Assembly: GCA_022360445.1 (NCBI GenBank)
Contig: JAKSCV010000094.1
Span: 1-32,061 of the forward strand
Source of the DNA: Gammaproteobacteria bacterium
Lineage (GTDB): Bacteria > Pseudomonadota > Gammaproteobacteria > UBA5861
Direction of reading: 5' to 3'
Length of the DNA stretch: 32,061 nt
Shown: positions 10,193 to 22,074 of the stretch, piece by piece
Layout: every line of letters begins with the position of its first letter
Position numbering within the stretch: the first letter of the stretch is position 1
Position numbers and translations under genes: made by a program
Notes under the pieces: model-generated
What the model was told of the DNA's origin: nothing
Database searches by the model: none
The model's input: the letters and a program-made list of their open reading frames with translations, nothing else

Positions 10193-13100
10193 TCAAGCGC
10201 TCGCCATCTTTGCCGCTTCCTGCACATCCACAGAGACAAGCCGCGAAACGCCCGGCTCGTTCATGGTCACTCCCATTAACTGGCTGGAGAGTTCCATGGT
10301 CGCCTTATTGTGTGTGATGAAAATAAACTGAACCCGGTCAGACATTTCCCGAACCAGGTCACAAAAGCGCCCGACGTTCGCATCATCGAGCGGTGCATCC
10401 ACCTCATCCAGCATGCAAAAAGGAGCGGGATTCAATTCAAAAAAAGCAAAAACCAGCGCAACGGCCGTCAGCGCTTTTTCGCCACCAGAAAGCAGCTGAA
10501 TATGACTCACTCTTTTGCCGGGAGGCCTCGCCATTATAGATACCCCCGTGTCGAGCAAATTATCGCCTGTCAGTTCCAGCGAGGCTTGACCTCCCCCAAA
10601 TAAGCGTGGGAATAGGCCCTGCAGCCCCGTATTGACCTGATCAAACGTTTCCTTGAATTTGGACTTTGTCTCACGGTCAATTTTTGCGATGGCTCTTTCC
10701 AGTGTTTCCAACGCATCTGTGATGTCTTTGTGCTGCTGCTCAATCAGCTCCTGGCGCTTGAGCTGTTCCTGATATTCATCAATTGCCGCCAGATTAATCG
10801 GGCCTAGTCGCTCAATACGGACAACCGTTTCATTCAACCGAGCTTCATAATCCGTGCTTGAAACATTTGGCGCCAGTTCAGCCAGCAACTGGTCTTTGTC
10901 GTAACCAGACGCCGTAATCTGCTCCAGCAACGTCGCCCCGCGAACCTGTGACTCTTGAACCTCAAACTTTGCCTGGTTTAATTGTTCACGTACCTCATTG
11001 ACTGTGCTCTCTGCCCGCAAACGGTCCTGCTCCAATTGACGCAGCTGCTTTTCAAGCATTTCAACGGCATCACGCGCTGCGCTCAATTCCTGCTCCACAT
11101 GTAACCGTGATTCCAGCAAGGTTTCTAGCGATTGCGTGTGCTCGTTCATGGGCTCATCAGCCGCTAATAAAAGCGTTTCCAATTCTTCTCGCCGCGTTGA
11201 GGTGTGCACCAGCTGGCTTTGCATGCGTTCAATGTTTTGCTCTAAAGATGCCTGACTGGTCCGAAGCGCCTCCAAGCGCACAGCAATCTGCTGAGCCTGT
11301 TCCCGGTGCTGTTTTTCTTCTATTCGTGTATCCAACAACTGTGACTGCAAACGATCCCGTTCCTGTGACAATTGGTCGCCATCAGCTGCTAGACTTTCGA
11401 GGGTCTCCATCGCCTGCGCATGAGCGGCCCGACTTTCTTCGATGTCCAAAGCGCCTTGTTCAATCTGCTCCCGTAATTCTGCGACTTCCTGGGCAACGCG
11501 TCTTTGTCGTTCCACTGCCTGTTCTAGCCGCGAACGCTTGTCCCGAACCTGTGCGCTTTTATGGATTTGCTCCCGGTGGCTGTCGTTCAATTCCTTTTGT
11601 AGTTGCTCGCGTTGTGTGGCGACAGTACGTATCATCTCTGTTCGCATTTGGTGATCCGATTCGCCGGACTCCAGTTGCTCCCGAGCCTCATCAAGCTTTA
11701 TCTGAAGTCGCTTGATTTCACGTTCTCGCTCGAGGATACCGATGTCATCTTCCGCCTGGCCCACAACACGCAGCCAGTGCCGACCAACCCAGAAACCATC
11801 ACGCGTGACAATGGATTCTGTCATTGAGAAGTCTTCCCGTCTTTCTAAAGCTTCCGGCAAAGTTTCGGCCGTATAGACGCTTCCCAACCAGGAGAGGTCT
11901 GCGGATTGCGTGTGAACCTTGGCGAGTAAAGATCCTGCTTGCCCCTGACCGGATGCGCCCGTTTCAAGTAATATCAAATCTCCCTCAGGCTTATTATCCA
12001 GGCCCTCCCGAACTCCATCTAGGTGATCAATACAAATCGCCTCTAACGACTGGTGAAGAACGACTTGTACCGCTTTTTCCCATCCTGCCTCAACCTCCAA
12101 TTCCTGGGCAAGCCGGGGTTTAGACGACAATCCCTGCCGGTTGAGCCAATCTGAAAGCGATGAACTGGATGTGTTCAGTGCGGCTTTATTGATGGCTTCT
12201 AAAGCCATCAGTTGGCTATTCAAACCCTGAAATGCTTTTTGTTTCGCCGCCAATGCCTGCTCACCGGACTCCATTTCACCACGTAACTGCTTTATGCGAC
12301 GATCCAATTCATCAAACACTGCTTGCTTTTCAGCCAGCTGCTCAGATGCCAGTTGCTCCTCTTCAAGCGCTTGTTCGAGTGCTCGCTCTAACGCGGGTAC
12401 ATCAACCTGCCCTAACTCCGCCTCAATGCGCCCTTGTCGCTGCTTGTTCTGCGTAACATAACGCTCAAGTTGTTCAGCCCGGGTGCGTTCAATTTGCGCC
12501 TGTTGCGTCAATTGGTGATTGTGTTTGTTGTAATGATCCCAGCGTTGCTGCCAGGCGATCATTTTTTCTTCCGACGATTCCAGCGACGCGCCCGACTCGC
12601 TCTGTAAGTCAGATAACCGTTGGTACTCTGGTTCATTCTCCGCCAGCTGCTGCTTGACCTCTGCCAGCTTGACCTGGTCTTGCTCAATGTGGGTATTGGC
12701 TTCTTGCCAGGCCTGCGTTGCTTGAACCAATTCCTGCTCCTGTCGGCGTTTGGTATCCCGTGCATGCTGGATGGTTTGCTCAAGACGTGAAATATCGGCA
12801 CCAAGCTTGTAATACTGCCCTTGTATTTTGTTAAAGTGGTCATTGAGTTCAAGATGCTGCTCACGACAAGATTCAATATCCGCTTCATGCTTTCTCAACG
12901 CTACGCTAGCCTCTTCGAGCTTCAGCTCCCAGTCACGCACGGACTCTTTTTGGCTTTGTGCCTTGACCTGAAAATCCCGCCAGCCCAGCACCAGTAACTG
13001 AGCACGCAATTGGCGCTCCTGACTTTTGAGGACTTTGTATTTCTCAGCCGTTTCGGATTGGCGTTTGAGGCGATCCACCTGTTTTTCGATCTCTTCACTG

Positions 13101-13690
13101 AGATCATTCAGACGGTCAAGGTTTTCACGCGTATGGCGGATACGGTTTTCTGTTTCTCGGCGACGGTCTTTGTACTTTGAGATTCCGGCAGCTTCTTCAA
13201 GGTAAACGCGGATTTCCTCCGGTTTGGCTTCAATCAACCGTGAAATCATCCCCTGTTCAATGATGGCGTAACTGCGCGGACCCAGCCCTGTGCCCAAAAA
13301 AATGTCGGTAATGTCCCGCCTGCGGCAGCGGCTACCATTCAGAAAATAATGAGATTGGCCTTCACGGGTGACCTGCCGACGAACCGAGATCTCGGCATAT
13401 TGGGCGTATTCGCCTCCCAGACTGCCACTGGTGTTATCAAAGACCAACTCGACAGAGGCCTGAGCAACCGGCTTCCGCGCACTGGAGCCGGAAAAAATCA
13501 CATCCTCCATGGAGCCGCCTCGCAAGTGCTTGGCGGACGATTCGCCCATCACCCAGCGTACCGCATCTATGGTATTCGATTTGCCACATCCATTGGGCCC
13601 AACGATGCCGATGAGATTTGAAGGCATCTCGATGGTCGTCGGATCAACGAATGACTTGAAGCCTGCCAGCTTAATTTTACTTAGCCGCAT
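10193..13690 (-). CDS. smc: Chromosome partition protein SMC
   Basis: SMC is the ATPase of the bacterial condensin that compacts and segregates chromosomes, normally with ScpA and ScpB, which are not in this window. The 1165 residues have the full architecture: an N-terminal head with Walker A GPNGCGKSN (about 31-39), a long coiled coil, a hinge (about 515-645), a returning coiled coil, and a C-terminal head with the signature LLSGGEKALTAVAL and Walker B FCMLDEVDAPLDDAN. I chose the ATG at 13688-13690 because it yields the canonical beginning MRLSKIKLAGFKSF. An upstream ATG at 13732 would add 14 residues, but it overlaps a likely -10 element. The gene is divergent from the FGGY-fold gene. MukB is the alternative condensin in enterics, and this is clearly not MukB. 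Confidence 0.97.
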   Translation of the reverse strand: MRLSKIKLAGFKSFVDPTTIEMPSNLIGIVGPNGCGKSNTIDAVRWVMGESSAKHLRGGSMEDVIFSGSSARKPVAQASVELVFDNTSGSLGGEYAQYAEISVRRQVTREGQSHYFLNGSRCRRRDITDIFLGTGLGPRSYAIIEQGMISRLIEAKPEEIRVYLEEAAGISKYKDRRRETENRIRHTRENLDRLNDLSEEIEKQVDRLKRQSETAEKYKVLKSQERQLRAQLLVLGWRDFQVKAQSQKESVRDWELKLEEASVALRKHEADIESCREQHLELNDHFNKIQGQYYKLGADISRLEQTIQHARDTKRRQEQELVQATQAWQEANTHIEQDQVKLAEVKQQLAENEPEYQRLSDLQSESGASLESSEEKMIAWQQRWDHYNKHNHQLTQQAQIERTRAEQLERYVTQNKQRQGRIEAELGQVDVPALERALEQALEEEQLASEQLAEKQAVFDELDRRIKQLRGEMESGEQALAAKQKAFQGLNSQLMALEAINKAALNTSSSSLSDWLNRQGLSSKPRLAQELEVEAGWEKAVQVVLHQSLEAICIDHLDGVREGLDNKPEGDLILLETGASGQGQAGSLLAKVHTQSADLSWLGSVYTAETLPEALERREDFSMTESIVTRDGFWVGRHWLRVVGQAEDDIGILEREREIKRLQIKLDEAREQLESGESDHQMRTEMIRTVATQREQLQKELNDSHREQIHKSAQVRDKRSRLEQAVERQRRVAQEVAELREQIEQGALDIEESRAAHAQAMETLESLAADGDQLSQERDRLQSQLLDTRIEEKQHREQAQQIAVRLEALRTSQASLEQNIERMQSQLVHTSTRREELETLLLAADEPMNEHTQSLETLLESRLHVEQELSAARDAVEMLEKQLRQLEQDRLRAESTVNEVREQLNQAKFEVQESQVRGATLLEQITASGYDKDQLLAELAPNVSSTDYEARLNETVVRIERLGPINLAAIDEYQEQLKRQELIEQQHKDITDALETLERAIAKIDRETKSKFKETFDQVNTGLQGLFPRLFGGGQASLELTGDNLLDTGVSIMARPPGKRVSHIQLLSGGEKALTAVALVFAFFELNPAPFCMLDEVDAPLDDANVGRFCDLVREMSDRVQFIFITHNKATMELSSQLMGVTMNEPGVSRLVSVDVQEAAKMASA

Positions 13691-13730
13691 TGATGTACGG
13701 ATGACGTCCCTGAAGCCCAAAAACTCGCCC

Positions 13731-13761
13731 ATTGTATCGCGGGAAATGTTAATTGCTACAA
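13731..13761 (-). promoter_or_regulatory. Putative smc promoter, overlapping a divergent promoter
   Basis: On the minus strand TTGTAG (complement of 13756-13761) precedes TACAAT (complement of 13731-13736) by 19 nt. The -10 overlaps the upstream candidate ATG of smc, which argues for translation from 13690. The same bases form a mirror-image promoter for the plus strand. Confidence 0.4.
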
Positions 13762-13795: not shown

Positions 13796-15067
13796 ATGGC
13801 AGACACAACGCTTTATCTCGGCATTAGTTTAACTCCCAAGGATTGCGAAGCCGTCATCATTGACAATGATCAAAATCAGCAGGCCACAGCGAGCGTGGCA
13901 CTGCCTCATAGTCCGCTCACGGGAAAAGACGCACCGACTGCCTGGATCAAGGCCGTAGAAGCCATTTGCCAAGTCATTCTCCCGCAAGTAGACCGGAGAA
14001 AAATTGGGCACCTTAGCATCGTATCACCAACAGACGTGTTGCTACTGAGTGATGCGTTCGGCAATCCAGTCTCTTCCGTCTTAGGCCATGACTATCGTTG
14101 CAGCTATCCGCTGTATGCTCGCATCAGCCCGGCAATACCCGCTCAATCAGGTGCCGGTGGCGATAGCAGCAGCCTGTTTAAACTCCTTGAGTTACTCGAC
14201 GCCAGTGACGGGCAGTCGGTTCGCCCCATGCATCAATCAGAGTGGCTAACGGCAAAGCTCAGTGGTCAAAACGGTATCTGCAATGAGCACCAGGCAACAC
14301 GACTGGGTTATGACCCTGTTAAACAGCGTTGGCCTCGCTGGTTGGATAAACTTACTCAGGGCCAAGCAGTGCTGCCACAGGTAGTGATTCCTGGCACACC
14401 AATGGGCACACTGACACCTGCATTTGCACAAAAGCTCTCTTTGCCAGTTCATGTCCAAATAGTGGCTGGTACAACAAGTGAAACGGCTGAGTTTTTATCG
14501 ACAGGGCTTCATGACACGCCCCGAGCTATCACACGTTTTAACCCTTTTTTAACGCTACAAAACATGGCTTCTATGCCGGTTTTCTCCAGCGAGCACGGTG
14601 TCTATAGTCACCGCCTGGGGAGCCGCTGGCTGGTTCATGCCACATCCCACACAGGCATGACGGCTGTCTACCACTACCTGCCAGAGGCCGATGTTAATGC
14701 CCGGCTGGATCAGGTAAAGGCCAATCCTCTTTTAAACCTGGACCTCTACCCGCTGGTTGAAGCAGGCGAACAATTCCCGATTCGGAACCCTCGAATGCGT
14801 GCGGTGGTTAACCCCCGCCCGGATGATAATACGATATTCCTCCAGGCATTACTCGAAGCCCTCGCTGATGCCGAACACGATGGCTACTGGCTTTTACAGC
14901 GCTTGGGCAGCCGACCACCTGAGCAGGTGTACACATTTGAATCTGGCCCTGACCAGGGGGCATGGCTTAAAATCAGAGAACAAAAAATGAAGACCGAACT
15001 GTGTGCGTTGGAGACGAAACCCAACGCAGCTCTCGGCGCTGCACTGGTAGCGTCAGGTCACATGTAA
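13796..15067 (+). CDS. FGGY-fold sugar kinase homologue, predicted pseudokinase
   Basis: This 423-residue protein resembles the short FGGY-family kinases of the cyanobacterial/plant D-ribulokinase or xylulokinase-1 type. Matching landmarks are YLGI near the N-terminus, GYDPVKQRWPRWL (171-183), IVAGTT (222-227), GVYSHRLGSRWL (268-279), FPIRNP (327-332), NPRP near 339-342 and the terminal ALGAAL (412-417). The catalytic signatures are altered. The first-motif Asp is S11 (GISLTP instead of GxDxGT), the catalytic Asp of GTTD is S228 (GTTSET), and the nucleotide-binding Gly-rich GGG loop is replaced by FESGPDQG (381-388). Phosphoryl transfer therefore looks unlikely, and a binding or regulatory role is inferred. 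The ATG at 13796 gives the natural N-terminus; a TTG at 13763 is unlikely. It heads a unit with cysZ 29 nt downstream. Confidence 0.8.
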   Translation: MADTTLYLGISLTPKDCEAVIIDNDQNQQATASVALPHSPLTGKDAPTAWIKAVEAICQVILPQVDRRKIGHLSIVSPTDVLLLSDAFGNPVSSVLGHDYRCSYPLYARISPAIPAQSGAGGDSSSLFKLLELLDASDGQSVRPMHQSEWLTAKLSGQNGICNEHQATRLGYDPVKQRWPRWLDKLTQGQAVLPQVVIPGTPMGTLTPAFAQKLSLPVHVQIVAGTTSETAEFLSTGLHDTPRAITRFNPFLTLQNMASMPVFSSEHGVYSHRLGSRWLVHATSHTGMTAVYHYLPEADVNARLDQVKANPLLNLDLYPLVEAGEQFPIRNPRMRAVVNPRPDDNTIFLQALLEALADAEHDGYWLLQRLGSRPPEQVYTFESGPDQGAWLKIREQKMKTELCALETKPNAALGAALVASGHM

Positions 15068-15096: not shown

Positions 15097-15873
15097 ATGC
15101 TTGAACAGTTTTTTTTGGGGGCACACTATGTCGGCAAGGGCGCAGGCATCATTCAGCAAGCCAAATTACGCCGCTTTGTGATTATCCCGATCATTATTAA
15201 TTTGTTTGTATTTTTTGGGCTGATCTGGTTGAGTGGCTACTACTTTGCCTCGTTGCTCGATACTTTTCTGCCCGCCTGGCTCGACTGGGCAATCATTCAG
15301 TTTATTCTCTGGACCTTCTTCGCCCTCCTCGCGCTCGTCGTTTTTGCCTACACATTCACGCTGATCACAAACTTTATTGCCGCACCGTTTAACAGTTTGT
15401 TAGCTGAAAAAGTAGAGCGCTACCTCACGGGGCAAACGGTCGAAACGTCTGACTCTTTTTCTCAATTACTGAAAAGCATTCCCGTCACCATGGCGTCAGA
15501 GGTCCGTAAGCTGATTTACCTCGTTATGTGGATGATTCCATTGATTATCATCAGCTTTATTCCTGTACTGAATATTCTTTCGCCAGCGCTGTGGCTGATT
15601 TTCAGCGCCTGGATGCTTTCACTGGAATACACAGACTACCCCATGGGCAATCATGGTTATACGTTTGGCCGAATTAAAAAACGGATGAAAAAGTCACGCC
15701 CGCTGGCGCTTGGTTTTGGTGGAGCGCTGACGATCTTGACCTCAATTCCCTTGATCAACATTGTCGCCATGCCCATCGGCGTTGCCGGAGCAACGGCGCT
15801 TTGGGTGGATGTCATTTCCAAAACTGGGGACACGCCTACTCGTCACTCACAAGCATTACAAAGCACCGAATGA
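15097..15873 (+). CDS. cysZ: Sulfate permease CysZ
   Basis: CysZ (EI24/DUF540 family) is an inner-membrane sulfate channel supplying cysteine synthesis. The 258 residues match the family length of about 250. The protein opens with FFLGAHYVGKGAGIIQQAKLR, then membrane segments at about 28-48, 65-95 (continuous hydrophobic stretch), 145-180 and 205-240. It also contains the loop ITNFIAAPFNSLLAEKVE and the segment LSLEYTDYPMGNHGYTF, both typical of CysZ. The ATG at 15097 gives this N-terminus; in-frame codons further upstream would add an unrelated polar leader overlapping the previous gene. It follows the FGGY-fold gene by 29 nt and overlaps the peptidase gene by 4 nt (ATGA). No cys biosynthesis genes are nearby. 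Confidence 0.92.
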   Translation: MLEQFFLGAHYVGKGAGIIQQAKLRRFVIIPIIINLFVFFGLIWLSGYYFASLLDTFLPAWLDWAIIQFILWTFFALLALVVFAYTFTLITNFIAAPFNSLLAEKVERYLTGQTVETSDSFSQLLKSIPVTMASEVRKLIYLVMWMIPLIIISFIPVLNILSPALWLIFSAWMLSLEYTDYPMGNHGYTFGRIKKRMKKSRPLALGFGGALTILTSIPLINIVAMPIGVAGATALWVDVISKTGDTPTRHSQALQSTE

Positions 15874-16700
15874 AGACAAAACTCTTTTGGCTCTCCATAC
15901 TCCTTATTTTCAGCTCTTTCAGTACGCAGACCCATGCCCTGCCCGTCGAACAGCTGACGCCCGGCGGCGTTGCACTCGTCTCTCTTCCACCGATTGGGAC
16001 AGCAAAGCCCCGCGTACACTACAACCAGATTCCTGTGACGACAGTCCAACGCGAGACACATTGGGTCGCACTGGTCGGGATTCCATTGAATGCTCAATCG
16101 GGTCCGCACGAAATTGTGGCCCGATGGGGCAAAAACGGTCCCAAATCTCGCCATAGTTTTAAAGTGAACGCAAAAGCTTATCCTGAGCAGCGTTTAACGA
16201 TCAAAAACAAGCGGAAGGTGAATCCCAACCCCACCGATATGGAACGCATTCGCAAAGAGCAACAGCGTATCCGGCAAGCCCGGCATTCGTGGCAAAGCAC
16301 CACTCCGGCACTGACACTTCAACTGCCGGTGGTTGGCCGGGAAAGCAGCCCGTTTGGCTTACGCCGTTTTTTTAACAACCAGGCTCGAAAACCCCATGGC
16401 GGACTGGATATTGCCGCCCCAACAGGCACACCCATCTACGCACCTGCGGCAGGGCTGGTCGTGGAAACAGGCGACTATTTTTTTAGCGGAAATTGTATTT
16501 TCATTAATCATGGCCAAGGGCTTGTGACATTTTATGCCCATTTACATCGCATTGATGTCAAACCCGGACAAATGGTTCAAACCGGAGACAAAATCGGTGA
16601 GGTGGGTGCCACGGGGCGCGTGACCGGCCCCCATTTGCATTGGTCGGTTGGTTTAAACCGCATCTGGGTTGAGCCCAAGCTTTTTTTACCCACACCGTGA
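15870..16700 (+). CDS. Secreted M23-family metallopeptidase (LytM/NlpD-like)
   Basis: This is a predicted periplasmic zinc endopeptidase that would cut peptidoglycan cross-links. The 276 residues begin with a signal peptide (MKTKLFWLSILLIFSSFSTQTHA, cleavage near 23 after an AxA-like site). An N-terminal beta domain (about 25-100) and a charged helix (about 118-140) follow, then the M23 domain (about 155-270). Zinc and catalytic residues are visible as H176 and D180 in HGGLD, YAHLHRI (H224, H226) and GPHLHW (H255, H257). The set is complete, so it should be an active enzyme and not an EnvC/NlpD-type activator. The ATG at 15870 overlaps the cysZ stop, and its TGA overlaps the GTG of atl. Confidence 0.92.
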   Translation: MKTKLFWLSILLIFSSFSTQTHALPVEQLTPGGVALVSLPPIGTAKPRVHYNQIPVTTVQRETHWVALVGIPLNAQSGPHEIVARWGKNGPKSRHSFKVNAKAYPEQRLTIKNKRKVNPNPTDMERIRKEQQRIRQARHSWQSTTPALTLQLPVVGRESSPFGLRRFFNNQARKPHGGLDIAAPTGTPIYAPAAGLVVETGDYFFSGNCIFINHGQGLVTFYAHLHRIDVKPGQMVQTGDKIGEVGATGRVTGPHLHWSVGLNRIWVEPKLFLPTP

Positions 16701-17044
16701 CGTCTAAGCGGGATCAACAAACCGTTTATCAGACCGTCAAAAGGATTCCCCCTGGCTGTGTGGCGACCTACGGACAAGTGGCGGATTTAAGCAATGCCCC
16801 AGGACGAGCACGGTGGGTTGGGTATCTGCTACGGCAGTCACCACCCGAAGAAAAACTCCCCTGGCATCGCGTGGTTAATGCCAAGGGCCGGATTTCATTT
16901 CCAGAAGGTAGCGAGAAGCACACGATGCAACGCAGGCTGTTGGAGGAAGAAGGTGTGGTCTTTACGCAGGGAGTGATCGACCTCAAGCAGTTTCAATGGA
17001 TATTTTCTCTGCCCGACTGGTTATTCGGCCCACCACCGGAATAA
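16697..17044 (+). CDS. Alkyltransferase-like protein (Atl)
   Basis: Atl proteins resemble the DNA-binding domain of O6-alkylguanine-DNA alkyltransferase but lack the acceptor cysteine. They flag alkylated guanines for nucleotide-excision repair. The 115 residues contain the winged-helix segment and the altered active-site motif PWHRV, with W56 where alkyltransferases have Cys (PCHRV). Y25 (in TYGQV) and R39 (in GRARW) correspond to the base-flipping Tyr and Arg-finger described in Schizosaccharomyces pombe Atl1. The start is GTG, overlapping the peptidase stop by 4 nt (GTGA), so it is coupled to the upstream gene. It is the last gene of the plus-strand unit and converges on azlD. Confidence 0.93.
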   Translation: MTSKRDQQTVYQTVKRIPPGCVATYGQVADLSNAPGRARWVGYLLRQSPPEEKLPWHRVVNAKGRISFPEGSEKHTMQRRLLEEEGVVFTQGVIDLKQFQWIFSLPDWLFGPPPE

Positions 17045-18128: not shown

Positions 18129-18462
18129 AGCAAAACTCCTTACTTACCTCTCCTGTTATCGAGGTGTTTTTTTATTTTATTTGGTCAGCCTTCTTCATCC
18201 GCCAGTATAACGGGCTACGCGCGCTTGCGTACGTTCTCAATACTGCACCATCTGCGTGAAAACAACAGAGTAGCCCGCGGATGAAATCACGAATCCAGCG
18301 GCTTATTTAATCGGATTGAAATATGCCCGGCGTAACGTTCTACGGTGAATTCATTGCAGCATTCAAAATTACGCTAAGTCCACTGATCAATTTGCTTTGC
18401 ACCGAATTCAACAACTCAGCCAAATCGAATGATTTTTTATTAGCCAGAGAATGGAGAATATT
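18129..18462. other. Intergenic region between azlC and the PhoX-like gene, with REP-like inverted repeats
   Basis: This 334-nt divergent gap holds no ORF that I can support. It must contain promoters for both azlCD and the PhoX-like gene, but I find no convincing pair of hexamers. It contains two inverted copies of a degenerate motif, GTAGCCCG plus CGGATGAA: one on the minus strand at 18194-18218 and one on the plus strand at 18270-18285. They resemble dispersed extragenic repeats of gammaproteobacteria. Confidence 0.5.
18194..18285. repeat. Inverted pair of REP-like motifs
   Basis: CGGGCTAC at 18211-18218 is the exact reverse complement of GTAGCCCG at 18270-18277. TTCATCCG at 18194-18201 is the exact reverse complement of CGGATGAA at 18278-18285. 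In the left arm the two blocks are separated by about 9 nt, while in the right arm they abut, so the structure is an imperfect long inverted repeat. Confidence 0.45.
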
Positions 18463-20334
18463 GTGATTTCTACTTTCAAAAAGAAGCCTTTAGCTTTACT
18501 GATCAGTACTATTCTGGTCAGTTCGACTTTAGCGCTAAGCAGCTGTGGCGATGATGGTGACAACGGGGTTGACGGCACCGATGGAGCTCCGGGACAAGAT
18601 GGTACCGACGGGGTTGACGGCGCCGATGGAGCTCCGGGACAAGATGGTGTAGACGGTACTGATGGAGCAGATGGCATCATAAACTACATCCCGCAGGGCT
18701 TGAAACGCCTGGCAACAGCTCCTTTAGGTGCCGAGTTCACGGGCATGTTCTTGAATACCGATGGTGCACTTTTCCTCAATACGCAACACCCAAGCAGCAG
18801 TAACACAGCCGCTGATGCCGATGGCAAAGTATTCAACAAAGGTACGGTTGGCGTGATCACGGGTATCAACTTCAATACCCTCGGTGACATGGCGGCGATG
18901 GATATGCCGATCATCACTGCTGATAAAGAAGTCGTAAAAACGGCCGTGGGCACTTATAAAGTCTTGGTTCAGCAAACAGATGCTCTGGCTGATGGCCATA
19001 CCATGGGAGACATCCTCGCTGCCGATGGCACAACGGTCATTAAAAATTCCAATGATCCTGACTTCAACGCCGCTGTTTCCGACGGTACCGGCGGCTATTA
19101 CTTGTACACCAACTGGGAAGACCGCCCAGGTAGCATGAGCCGGATTCAAATGTCGGCCGATTACAACACCGTCACAGCAGAAGGCATGCTGGACTTTTCT
19201 GCTGTAGATGGCACGTGGGTCAACTGTTTTGGCACACTCAGCCCCTGGGGTACGCCGCTCTCGGCCGAAGAACTCTACTTTGACAATACCGCCGATTGGT
19301 TTGACCCCGCTTACACCTATTTCAGTAACGCAGAAGCCATTGCCGAATACAAAGGCTACCCGCTTGATCGCAGTGGTAACTGGGGCAACCCGTATGACTA
19401 CGGCTACATCGTTGAAGTGGGCGTCAACGGAACCGTGGCCACGGCGAACGAAGCCAATGTCGAAGTGAATAAGCTGGAATTGATGGGCCGTTTCTCGCAC
19501 GAAAACCCTGTTGTCATGCCCGACCAGCGCACCGTTTTCCTAAGCGACGATGGCACAGGCGTGGTGTTCTTTAAATTCGTCGCCGATGTCGCAGGCGACA
19601 TGAGTGCTGGCAAGCTGTACGGGGCAAAAATCACTCAGGCCAGCGGCATCAAAGATCCGGCTGAAGCGGCACTTGGCATCGAGTGGATTGAGCTGGGTTC
19701 TGGCACTGAGGCAGCTATTGAAACAGCCATCGCCGAATATGACGGCACCTTTGCTGAGGCTAAATACATCACTGACCAGCAAATCAATGACTGGGCCGAA
19801 GCAAAAACAGGTACCGACATTGATGGTAACGGCAGCGTGGGCACAACCACTTTTACTGACAACCGCCCGGCTTTTCTGGAATCCCGTAAAGCCGCTGTTG
19901 CACTCGGTGCAACGGGTGAATTCCGCAAAATGGAAGGCGTTAATATCAACTATGGTTTAGCCAACACATGGTGGAATGCAGGTGCCGCAGACGGTACACA
20001 AGCCTATATGTACATGGCCATGTCGAGCTTTGACGCCACAATGGCTGACGATGCTGGCGACATTCAGTTGGATGGCACACACGGCAAATGTGGCGTTGTC
20101 TACCGCATGAAGCTCATGAAAAACGCGGACGGTCTGGTGGATGTCAACACAATGGTGCCTGCCATTGTCGGCGGCCCGTACTACGGCGACCGCAGTGTTA
20201 ATGAGTGCAGCGTGAACAACATTTCCAATCCGGACAACCTGGTGATTCTGGACGATGGCCGTGTACTCATCGGTGAGGACACAGGCAATCATGAAAACAA
20301 TGTGGTTTGGCTGTTCGACGATCCAGCGATCTAA
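18463..20334 (+). CDS. Predicted lipoprotein with collagen-like segment and PhoX-like (DUF839) domain
   Basis: The protein is about 623 residues. From the GTG at 18463 it starts MISTFKKKPLALLIST, a signal sequence ending in the lipobox LSSC (C28), so it is probably exported and lipidated. Residues 29-72 are about fourteen Gly-X-Y triplets rich in Asp (GVD, GTD, GAP, GQD), a collagen-like stalk. The remainder resembles PhoX/DUF839 proteins, whose characterised members are calcium- and iron-dependent phosphatases. Landmarks are RKAAVALGATGEFRKMEG, the acidic TDIDGNGSVG stretch and the terminal NPDNLVILDDGRVLIGEDTG. GGAG precedes the GTG by about 8 nt; an ATG at 18451 is an in-frame alternative with a weaker site. 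A hairpin and then the dihaem lipoprotein gene follow. Phosphatase activity is inferred only from the domain. Confidence 0.82.
   Translation: MISTFKKKPLALLISTILVSSTLALSSCGDDGDNGVDGTDGAPGQDGTDGVDGADGAPGQDGVDGTDGADGIINYIPQGLKRLATAPLGAEFTGMFLNTDGALFLNTQHPSSSNTAADADGKVFNKGTVGVITGINFNTLGDMAAMDMPIITADKEVVKTAVGTYKVLVQQTDALADGHTMGDILAADGTTVIKNSNDPDFNAAVSDGTGGYYLYTNWEDRPGSMSRIQMSADYNTVTAEGMLDFSAVDGTWVNCFGTLSPWGTPLSAEELYFDNTADWFDPAYTYFSNAEAIAEYKGYPLDRSGNWGNPYDYGYIVEVGVNGTVATANEANVEVNKLELMGRFSHENPVVMPDQRTVFLSDDGTGVVFFKFVADVAGDMSAGKLYGAKITQASGIKDPAEAALGIEWIELGSGTEAAIETAIAEYDGTFAEAKYITDQQINDWAEAKTGTDIDGNGSVGTTTFTDNRPAFLESRKAAVALGATGEFRKMEGVNINYGLANTWWNAGAADGTQAYMYMAMSSFDATMADDAGDIQLDGTHGKCGVVYRMKLMKNADGLVDVNTMVPAIVGGPYYGDRSVNECSVNNISNPDNLVILDDGRVLIGEDTGNHENNVVWLFDDPAI
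18564..18648 (+). repeat. Tandem 45-nt direct repeat coding for collagen-like triplets
   Basis: Two 40-nt blocks, 18564-18603 and 18609-18648, differ by a single base (A/G) and recur with a 45-nt period, which is 15 residues or five Gly-X-Y triplets. The near identity implies recent duplication and likely length variation between strains. Confidence 0.85.
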
Positions 20335-20360: not shown

Positions 20361-20389
20361 TGTGGCAAGGTCGCTCTGGCCTTGCCACA
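20361..20389 (+). other. Intercistronic hairpin between the PhoX-like and dihaem genes
   Basis: TGTGGCAAGG (20361-20370) pairs perfectly with CCTTGCCACA (20380-20389) around a 9-nt loop. No T tract follows, so complete termination is unlikely. It more likely stabilises or partially terminates the upstream transcript, giving more PhoX-like protein than dihaem protein. That consequence is inferred. Confidence 0.55.
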
Positions 20390-20406
20390 GCTCTGAGAGA
20401 CAACCC

Positions 20407-22074
20407 ATGAATAAACTCATCTTGATCCTGTCATTCATAACGGCGATTATTGTCGCCTGTCAAAGCGATGATGACGACGAACCAATCAACAAACCCGATT
20501 TAAGCGTTATCAGCGGCCTGGTTTTTCCTCAAAAAATCGCACATGGTCCAGAAGGCGACCTGCGCGAAACCGAGTCACCACAGATCTACAATCCAGAAGC
20601 AGTTATTCCCCCGCAATGCTACACCAAGCATGACGCAGCATTTAATCCCTGTATGACCTGCCACCAAAGCTACCCCTACAAAAGCCGGCCCAATCAAATG
20701 GGTGATGGCAGCTTACAACGAGAATATGCCTTTTCCGACCTGGGGGTCGTAAATCACTGGTTAAATCTCTTCGAAGACCGTTCCAGTGCCATAGCAAACA
20801 TCACCGATCAAGACGTGATCGACTACATCTACACCGACAACTACACCCCTTTGATCAAACAACTGAACGAAACACCCGACTGGGAAGGCCCCATCCCAGC
20901 CATCGAAAACCTGCACCTGGGAAAACAAGCATTCGATGAACAGGGTTTCGCGCTCGATGGCAGTGGTTGGGTCGCGTTTAACTACAAGCCTTTGCCCAGC
21001 ACCTTTTGGCCAACCAACGGCTCGACAGACGATGTCATGATCCGCTTGCCGGAGAACTTTCGCGCATCGGACTGCGATAGCGAAGCCTTTTCGCGAGACA
21101 CCTACCTGGCTAACCTATCCATTCTTGAAGCGAGTATAAAAAGGCTGGACAGCATCAGCACGCCACCGATTGACGAAAACAAAGTCTGTACGGATTTGAA
21201 TGGAGACGAGCAGCTGACAACCGTGGAAAACATCAATCAATTAAGCCACTTCGTCGGCCAGGCAAGCGGTATCGAAACCGCTGACATGCTCTACCCGGTG
21301 GGCACGCAGTTCCTGCACACCGTGCGCTATGTTGGCATAACCGGAGATGGCGAAATTACCGTCTCCCCGCGGATGAAAGAAGTTCGTTACATGAAAAAAT
21401 TCCAGTTTTTTAACATCTCCCACCTCGCCTCCATGTACGGAAATGAACACCAGGAAAAAATTGATGGCTTGCTGCCTAAATACATCCACCGGGGAGACCA
21501 AGGCACAGACAACAGTTTTGGCTGGATGGTCCAAGGCTTTATTGAAGCAGAAGACGGCCACTTACGCCGGCAAACCCAGGAAGAACACCTGTTTTGCATG
21601 GGCTGCCATACCACCATTGGTTCCACCGTTGATCAAACCTTTGCTTTCCCACGTAAAGTCACCGGTGCGAAGGGCTGGGGGTACATCAACCTGAAAGGTA
21701 TGAGTGATGCGCCTAACGTCGATGGCCCGGGATATGGTGAAATCAAACACTATTTAAAAACCGTCGGTGGCGGCAATGAATTCAGAGAAAACCCGGAGAT
21801 CGTTGAACGCTACTTCAATCAAGACGGCACCGTAAACGAAGCGGCCGTAGACCAGGCCCGTGACGTTTATGAATTAATTACGCCCGGGCTGCGACGCGCG
21901 CTGGATTTGAATAAAGCGTACATGACAATCGTGCATGACCAGGACTTCATTCACGGCAGAGACGCCAACCTCGCACCGGCTGAAAATGTCTATCAAAGCG
22001 TCGACAACCACACCCCCGTATTGCCCGAAGGTAAAGCAGCCCATTGGGATATTCGTCTGCTCTGGCCTGAATGA
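20407..22074 (+). CDS. Unrecognised predicted lipoprotein with two CxxCH haem motifs
   Basis: I do not recognise a named family. The 555 residues start MNKLILILSFITAIIVAC, a lipoprotein signal with C18 as the likely lipidated cysteine, followed by an Asp-rich tether (SDDDDE). Two c-type haem-attachment motifs are present, CMTCH (82-86) and CMGCH (397-401), about 310 residues apart. Between them is an EF-hand-like calcium loop (DLNGDEQLTTVE, 263-274). No standard small cytochrome fold surrounds the motifs, so this looks like a large multidomain periplasmic redox or oxidase protein. The ATG at 20407 is chosen because it gives the signal peptide; an earlier in-frame codon would add a polar leader overlapping the hairpin. 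The gene is 72 nt after the PhoX-like gene, suggesting a shared task. A strong terminator follows. Confidence 0.8.
   Translation: MNKLILILSFITAIIVACQSDDDDEPINKPDLSVISGLVFPQKIAHGPEGDLRETESPQIYNPEAVIPPQCYTKHDAAFNPCMTCHQSYPYKSRPNQMGDGSLQREYAFSDLGVVNHWLNLFEDRSSAIANITDQDVIDYIYTDNYTPLIKQLNETPDWEGPIPAIENLHLGKQAFDEQGFALDGSGWVAFNYKPLPSTFWPTNGSTDDVMIRLPENFRASDCDSEAFSRDTYLANLSILEASIKRLDSISTPPIDENKVCTDLNGDEQLTTVENINQLSHFVGQASGIETADMLYPVGTQFLHTVRYVGITGDGEITVSPRMKEVRYMKKFQFFNISHLASMYGNEHQEKIDGLLPKYIHRGDQGTDNSFGWMVQGFIEAEDGHLRRQTQEEHLFCMGCHTTIGSTVDQTFAFPRKVTGAKGWGYINLKGMSDAPNVDGPGYGEIKHYLKTVGGGNEFRENPEIVERYFNQDGTVNEAAVDQARDVYELITPGLRRALDLNKAYMTIVHDQDFIHGRDANLAPAENVYQSVDNHTPVLPEGKAAHWDIRLLWPE

Follow-up and report, generated by a model that had tools for sequence, protein, structure and literature searches.

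Two probable ribulose-kinase pseudoenzymes maintained in a gammaproteobacterial lineage without detected RuBisCO

The closest solved relatives of the protein described here are the FGGY sugar kinases SePSK of Synechococcus elongatus and AtXK-1 of Arabidopsis. In SePSK, the substitutions D8A, T11A and D221A each strongly reduce activity, S243 is a beta-phosphate ligand, and the residues that bind D-ribulose (S72, D221 and S222; D8, S12, G13 and R15) and ATP (including S243, G376 and N380) have been named (PMC4880283). For phosphoribulokinase (PRK), the second enzyme of interest, the ligands of ribulose 5-phosphate are H45 and K165, R168 contacts ATP, and phosphate is bound by Y98 and H100 (PMC5241800). 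NADH activates class I PRKs and AMP inhibits them (PMC4806589).

We analysed the 32,061 nucleotides of contig JAKSCV010000094.1 (assembly GCA_022360445.1, lineage UBA5861), henceforth referred to as the window. An intact open reading frame (ORF) of 423 amino acids, with confirmed coordinates, lies in the following setting:

10193..13732, minus strand: smc, the divergent neighbour, found class-wide beside the kinase
13796..15067, plus strand: probable FGGY pseudokinase of the SePSK/AtXK-1 (D-ribulokinase-like) subfamily, 423 aa, assigned by homology and predicted structure
15100..15873, plus strand: cysZ (EI24 family), the next gene in the unit
15870..16700, plus strand: M23 peptidase, overlapping the cysZ stop
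16697..17044, plus strand: Ogt/alkyltransferase-like DNA-binding-domain protein, overlapping the M23 stop

This arrangement is as the first-pass annotation had described it. The last gene encodes a protein of 115 amino acids that matches PF01035 only and is Ogt-like, possibly alkyltransferase-like. Farther along the window, positions 18451-20334 encode a PhoX-like secreted protein with N-terminal collagen-like GxDG repeats after a lipoprotein-type signal. It is followed on the same strand (20362-22074) by a large protein that has a pair of CxxCH haem-binding motifs and matches no Pfam family.

We assessed the identity of the ORF product by homology and predicted structure. SePSK (PDB 5htn) matched residues 7-419 with an E-value of 7e-54 (phmmer), and the best solved relatives over the whole length were SePSK (5e-54 to 7e-54) and AtXK-1 (3e-48). 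The AF2 model, built with 100 sequences, has the two-domain FGGY fold with a pLDDT of 94.4, and Foldseek ranked SePSK structures first (TM 0.86, 30% identity). The first-pass annotation had recognized the length and fold landmarks of a D-ribulokinase/xylulokinase-1-like kinase and had proposed a structural comparison with the cyanobacterial enzyme; both the homology and the model bear it out. The protein nevertheless scores below the Pfam gathering thresholds (FGGY_N, 16.1 vs 28.8 bits; FGGY_C, 19 vs 27 bits), and NCBIfam matched it under the cut-off only. The weakest decade of the model, residues 381-390, is the ATP loop (pLDDT 71).

We mapped the SePSK residues onto the window kinase by alignment. 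The five degenerate motifs are:

13826..13837, plus strand: phosphate-1 motif S11-L-T-P14 (consensus D-x-G-T)
14012..14038, plus strand: DGTS motif LSIVSPTDV, residues 73-81 (consensus IAVDGTSGT)
14465..14485, plus strand: phosphate-2 motif AGTTSET with S228, residues 224-230 (consensus AGTTDST)
14525..14551, plus strand: SLGST strand AITRFNPFL, residues 244-252, covering the SePSK S243 position
14936..14968, plus strand: adenosine loop and flank FESGPDQGAWL, residues 381-391 (consensus xGGGAxNxAW)

All three catalytic residues are replaced (SePSK to window: D8 to S11, T11 to P14, D221 to S228). In the adenosine GGG loop, G375 and G376 have become E382 and S383, G377 is kept as G384, and the adenine-stacking W383 is retained as W390. 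Further replacements are S12 to K15, R15 to E18, D69 to V76, T71 to P78, S72 to T79 (Ala in the congeneric species described below), K163 to R169, S222 to E229, N278 to H285 and N380 to Q387, and the SLGST strand reads RFNPF (S243 to P250). The DGTS, NNALK, SLGST and GGASNSG motifs are likewise degenerate. The losses thus extend to the D-ribulose ligands of SePSK and to its ATP ligands S243, G376 and N380. The structural core (GVYS, PLxxxGExFP, FLQxLLExLxxxE and others) is retained. Among 98 positions that are ≥90% conserved in orthologues, 45 are lost in the window kinase, and ligand motifs are hit hardest, with 27 of 34 such positions lost vs 18 of 64 elsewhere (Fisher p 1e-6, with motif windows chosen from the paper and the alignment after the alignment was seen).

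None of the usual marks of a functional kinase, namely the catalytic Asp/Thr/Asp, the GGG loop and Pfam matches above threshold, is found in this protein. The replacement of kinase signatures by S11, P14, S228 and the FESGPDQG loop, reported from the first reading of the sequence, is confirmed by the SePSK mapping and the orthologue alignment, and the pseudokinase call is supported. More motifs are lost than it had listed. We infer that the protein is probably devoid of catalysis. That it is still an active kinase, drawing a catalytic Asp and an ATP loop from other positions, is hardly credible. The fold is intact and the adenine pocket retains G384 and W390, but all three activity-critical residues together with K163, S243 and N380 have been replaced at once, and the alignment has no gap near the motifs that could bring a neighbouring Asp into register. 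The retained W390 and G384 may still permit weak nucleotide binding.

To place the window kinase among its relatives, we surveyed 369 genomes of the class and detected the FGGY kinase family in 147 at E < 1e-15. The kinase alignment was made from 116 fetched loci and comprises 114 orthologues, the window kinase and that of its congener. Among the 114 orthologues, conservation rounds to 1.00 for D11 and D228 and to 0.99 for T14 (window numbering), and none carries the window residue at any of these positions. The loss of the catalytic set is confined to the window genome and its sole congener (a UBA5861 genome, G001; locus L146). The conservation of S11 and S228, raised as a check in the first-pass annotation, therefore extends to the congener and to none of the 114 other orthologues. 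The two genomes are the only ones of their order in the survey, and a contig search for more members of the pseudokinase clade found the congener alone; the pseudokinase state is described from these two congeneric species, with draft genomes ~97% complete. We rejected an assembly or annotation artefact, since the independent congener genome has the same ORF and the same losses. An active second FGGY kinase as a replacement was also rejected, as no second FGGY_N match was found in the window genome.

We then asked how the altered gene is evolving. The two kinases are 88% identical and differ by one single-codon gap, and both are free of stops and frameshifts. By parsimony, the key losses would predate the split of the two species. 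Because these losses are common to both, dN/dS measures constraint on an already altered kinase. The ratio, which rests on this one species pair, ranges from 0.16 (NG86, 95% bootstrap 0.11-0.23) to 0.25 (YN00/ML), the purifying selection expected of a maintained pseudoenzyme. Neighbouring genes give 0.03-0.23 (NG86) for the same pair, and the kinase is one of the faster-evolving genes in the window. Divergence from the rest of the family is large: the median identity of the window kinase to active members is 32%, compared with 49% among active members themselves, and the stem branch of the window and congener kinases is 1.79 substitutions per site, where end branches have a median of 0.33. A protein in slow decay, its role lost with the Calvin cycle and heading to a pseudogene, could show such a long stem, a comparatively fast rate and an identity to orthologues below that of any active member. 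We nonetheless consider decay very improbable, because both reading frames are open, the dN/dS interval lies well under 1, and structural-core positions and a confident fold are kept. Maintenance rather than decay, as first proposed from the sequence, agrees with the intact ORF in both species, the common losses, the constraint and the high-confidence fold.

The neighbourhood of the gene is old. Across the 116 loci, smc lies divergently upstream of the kinase at 102, followed on its far side by zipA and ligA. At 60 loci cysZ occurs near the kinase, mostly directly downstream. M23 is beside the kinase at only six loci, the congener among them, and the Ogt-like gene was found elsewhere only in the congener. 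The proposal that the surroundings be checked for conservation is thus answered in favour of smc and cysZ and against M23. The smc/kinase/cysZ locus of the window is the ancestral class-wide locus, so lateral acquisition of the window kinase is not supported; homology, fold and this locus together place the protein by descent among SePSK/AtXK-1-like FGGY kinases. The first-pass annotation had also read the neighbourhood as a hint of a non-enzymatic role. This reading does not hold, because the same genes surround class kinases that keep their catalytic residues, which makes the neighbourhood uninformative on the point. A promoter scan near the window kinase found nothing.

The SePSK-like kinase tied to the smc/zipA/ligA locus (116 loci, L046-L161) co-occurs with PRK and RuBisCO, a link for which our literature search found no prior report. 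In the 369 class genomes, 134 have both the kinase and RuBisCO (PF00016), 13 the kinase alone, 42 RuBisCO alone and 180 neither (odds ratio 44). Taking one genome per family (158 families), which is the only correction made for kinship, the corresponding counts are 58, 4, 18 and 78 (odds ratio 63, p 6e-22). A PRK homologue is present in all 62 kinase-bearing families and RuBisCO in 58 of them. This co-occurrence suggests that the family is likely a Calvin-cycle companion in the class; by analogy with SePSK activity, it might, for example, return D-ribulose to ribulose 5-phosphate. No RuBisCO match (PF00016) was found in the window genome or the congener, both drafts. We rejected the rule that RuBisCO loss always kills the kinase, because intact kinases without detected RuBisCO exist in several lineages (e.g. 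G003 and G353); RuBisCO loss does not force kinase loss, and the link, though strong, has exceptions. The same rule for PRK was rejected as well, as the PRK P-loop is intact in seven of the sampled genomes elsewhere that lack RuBisCO (G069, G086, G087, G139, G171, G251 and G347), indicating that PRK-like enzymes are otherwise used there.

The window genome has a single PRK-family gene, which is also degenerate and lies outside the window:

Contig C88, 137907-138773 (locus L166, 3405-4274), minus strand: the only PRK-family gene of the window genome

Its product, hereafter the pseudo-PRK, aligns end to end with Rhodobacter sphaeroides PRK (PDB 1a7j; E 1.6e-77). The P-loop GSSGAGTST has become GSLEVGSPA, and D42E, H45Y, Y98L, H100K, K165R, R168L and D169A are replaced at positions that are ≥95% conserved in other aligned PRKs; we take D42 and D169 to be the catalytic residues. 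The congener PRK has the same changes, with its 3' end masked. Between the two species, dN/dS is 0.06-0.10, indicating strong constraint. The AF2 model has a pLDDT of 86.7; the decade holding the P-loop is one of its two weakest, and the best fold match of the model is 1a7j (TM 0.90, 43% identity). The gene is flanked by trmB or thiG, as are intact PRK genes at 4 of 32 loci. Equivalents of R31, R234 and R257, presumably the allosteric arginines of class I PRK, are kept by alignment, which makes an energy-state sensor conceivable for the pseudo-PRK. RuBP, the product of PRK, harms cells without RuBisCO, according to PMC8388818, citing Rhodospirillum rubrum and Escherichia coli work, and to PMC7463662. 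PRK inactivation fits these reports, and such harm in the absence of RuBisCO plausibly explains the loss of PRK activity.

We consider it likely that two ribulose kinases linked to the Calvin cycle turned into maintained pseudokinases, binding rather than catalysing, in a lineage without RuBisCO. The window gene would descend, at its present locus, from a D-ribulokinase-like FGGY enzyme that was linked to smc and associated with the Calvin cycle. On the genus stem, the phosphate-1, phosphate-2, sugar and adenosine motifs would have been lost, with RuBisCO absent and the sole PRK of the genome apparently inactivated as well. Without PRK and RuBisCO, the product of a ribulokinase-like activity has lost one use. 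The two-domain fold would have been retained under continuing purifying selection, and this combination suggests that the protein most likely acts through surface binding of another molecule, as a scaffold, adaptor or regulator. Such binding could continue a non-catalytic interaction already present in the active kinase, and perhaps in PRK too.

A binding or scaffold role appears likelier than sugar sensing, because the residues that would bind D-ribulose, and most of those for ATP, have been lost. A D-ribulose sensor was disfavoured in particular, as both SePSK D-ribulose sites are replaced. Of the two roles offered in the first-pass annotation, metabolite sensing is accordingly weakened where the old ligand is concerned, and scaffolding stands as possible. 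The protein could instead be a re-purposed enzyme or small-molecule binder whose cleft was rebuilt for another ligand or reaction, which we regard as unlikely. S11, P14, R169, S228, E229, E382 and S383 are common to both species, W390 and G384 are kept, and a two-domain fold is predicted, all in favour of a rebuilt cleft; the phosphate-binding strand, however, differs between the species (N249/T, F251/A), and confidence in the model is lowest at the ATP loop. Returning to maintained pseudokinases, we entertain, with considerable doubt, that the active kinase and class I PRK of autotrophic relatives share a non-catalytic function, for instance within a single protein assembly or signal path. 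After RuBisCO loss, this function alone would have been retained, and both dead proteins would be kept for it and act together.

The genus thus offers a natural separation-of-function case, in which two ribulose(-phosphate) kinases have lost their catalytic residues while fold and constraint are kept and RuBisCO is not found. It also draws attention to a kinase that has received little notice, a likely companion of the Calvin cycle encoded at the smc locus in many autotrophs, and non-catalytic roles of these kinases become testable.

We compared the window kinase with known systems. Our literature search turned up no relevant report of FGGY or PRK pseudoenzymes in bacteria. The vertebrate testis glycerol-kinase-like proteins Gykl1/Gk2, reportedly without glycerol kinase activity, share with it the idea of an FGGY-fold pseudoenzyme and differ in subfamily and organism. 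SePSK/AtXK-1 (PDB 5htn/5htr) resemble it in full-length homology, two-domain fold and length, whereas D8/T11/D221, the GGG loop, K163, S243 and N380 of SePSK are replaced and the G377 and W383 equivalents kept. The pseudo-PRK is likewise similar to R. sphaeroides class I PRK in sequence and fold, and the P-loop and D42/H45/K165/R168/D169 are lost in the window genus. The 114 class-wide smc-linked FGGY kinases have the same locus, orientation and length as the window kinase at ~32% identity; their catalytic motifs are intact and almost all of them occur with PRK and RuBisCO, whereas in the window genus RuBisCO is absent and PRK is not intact.
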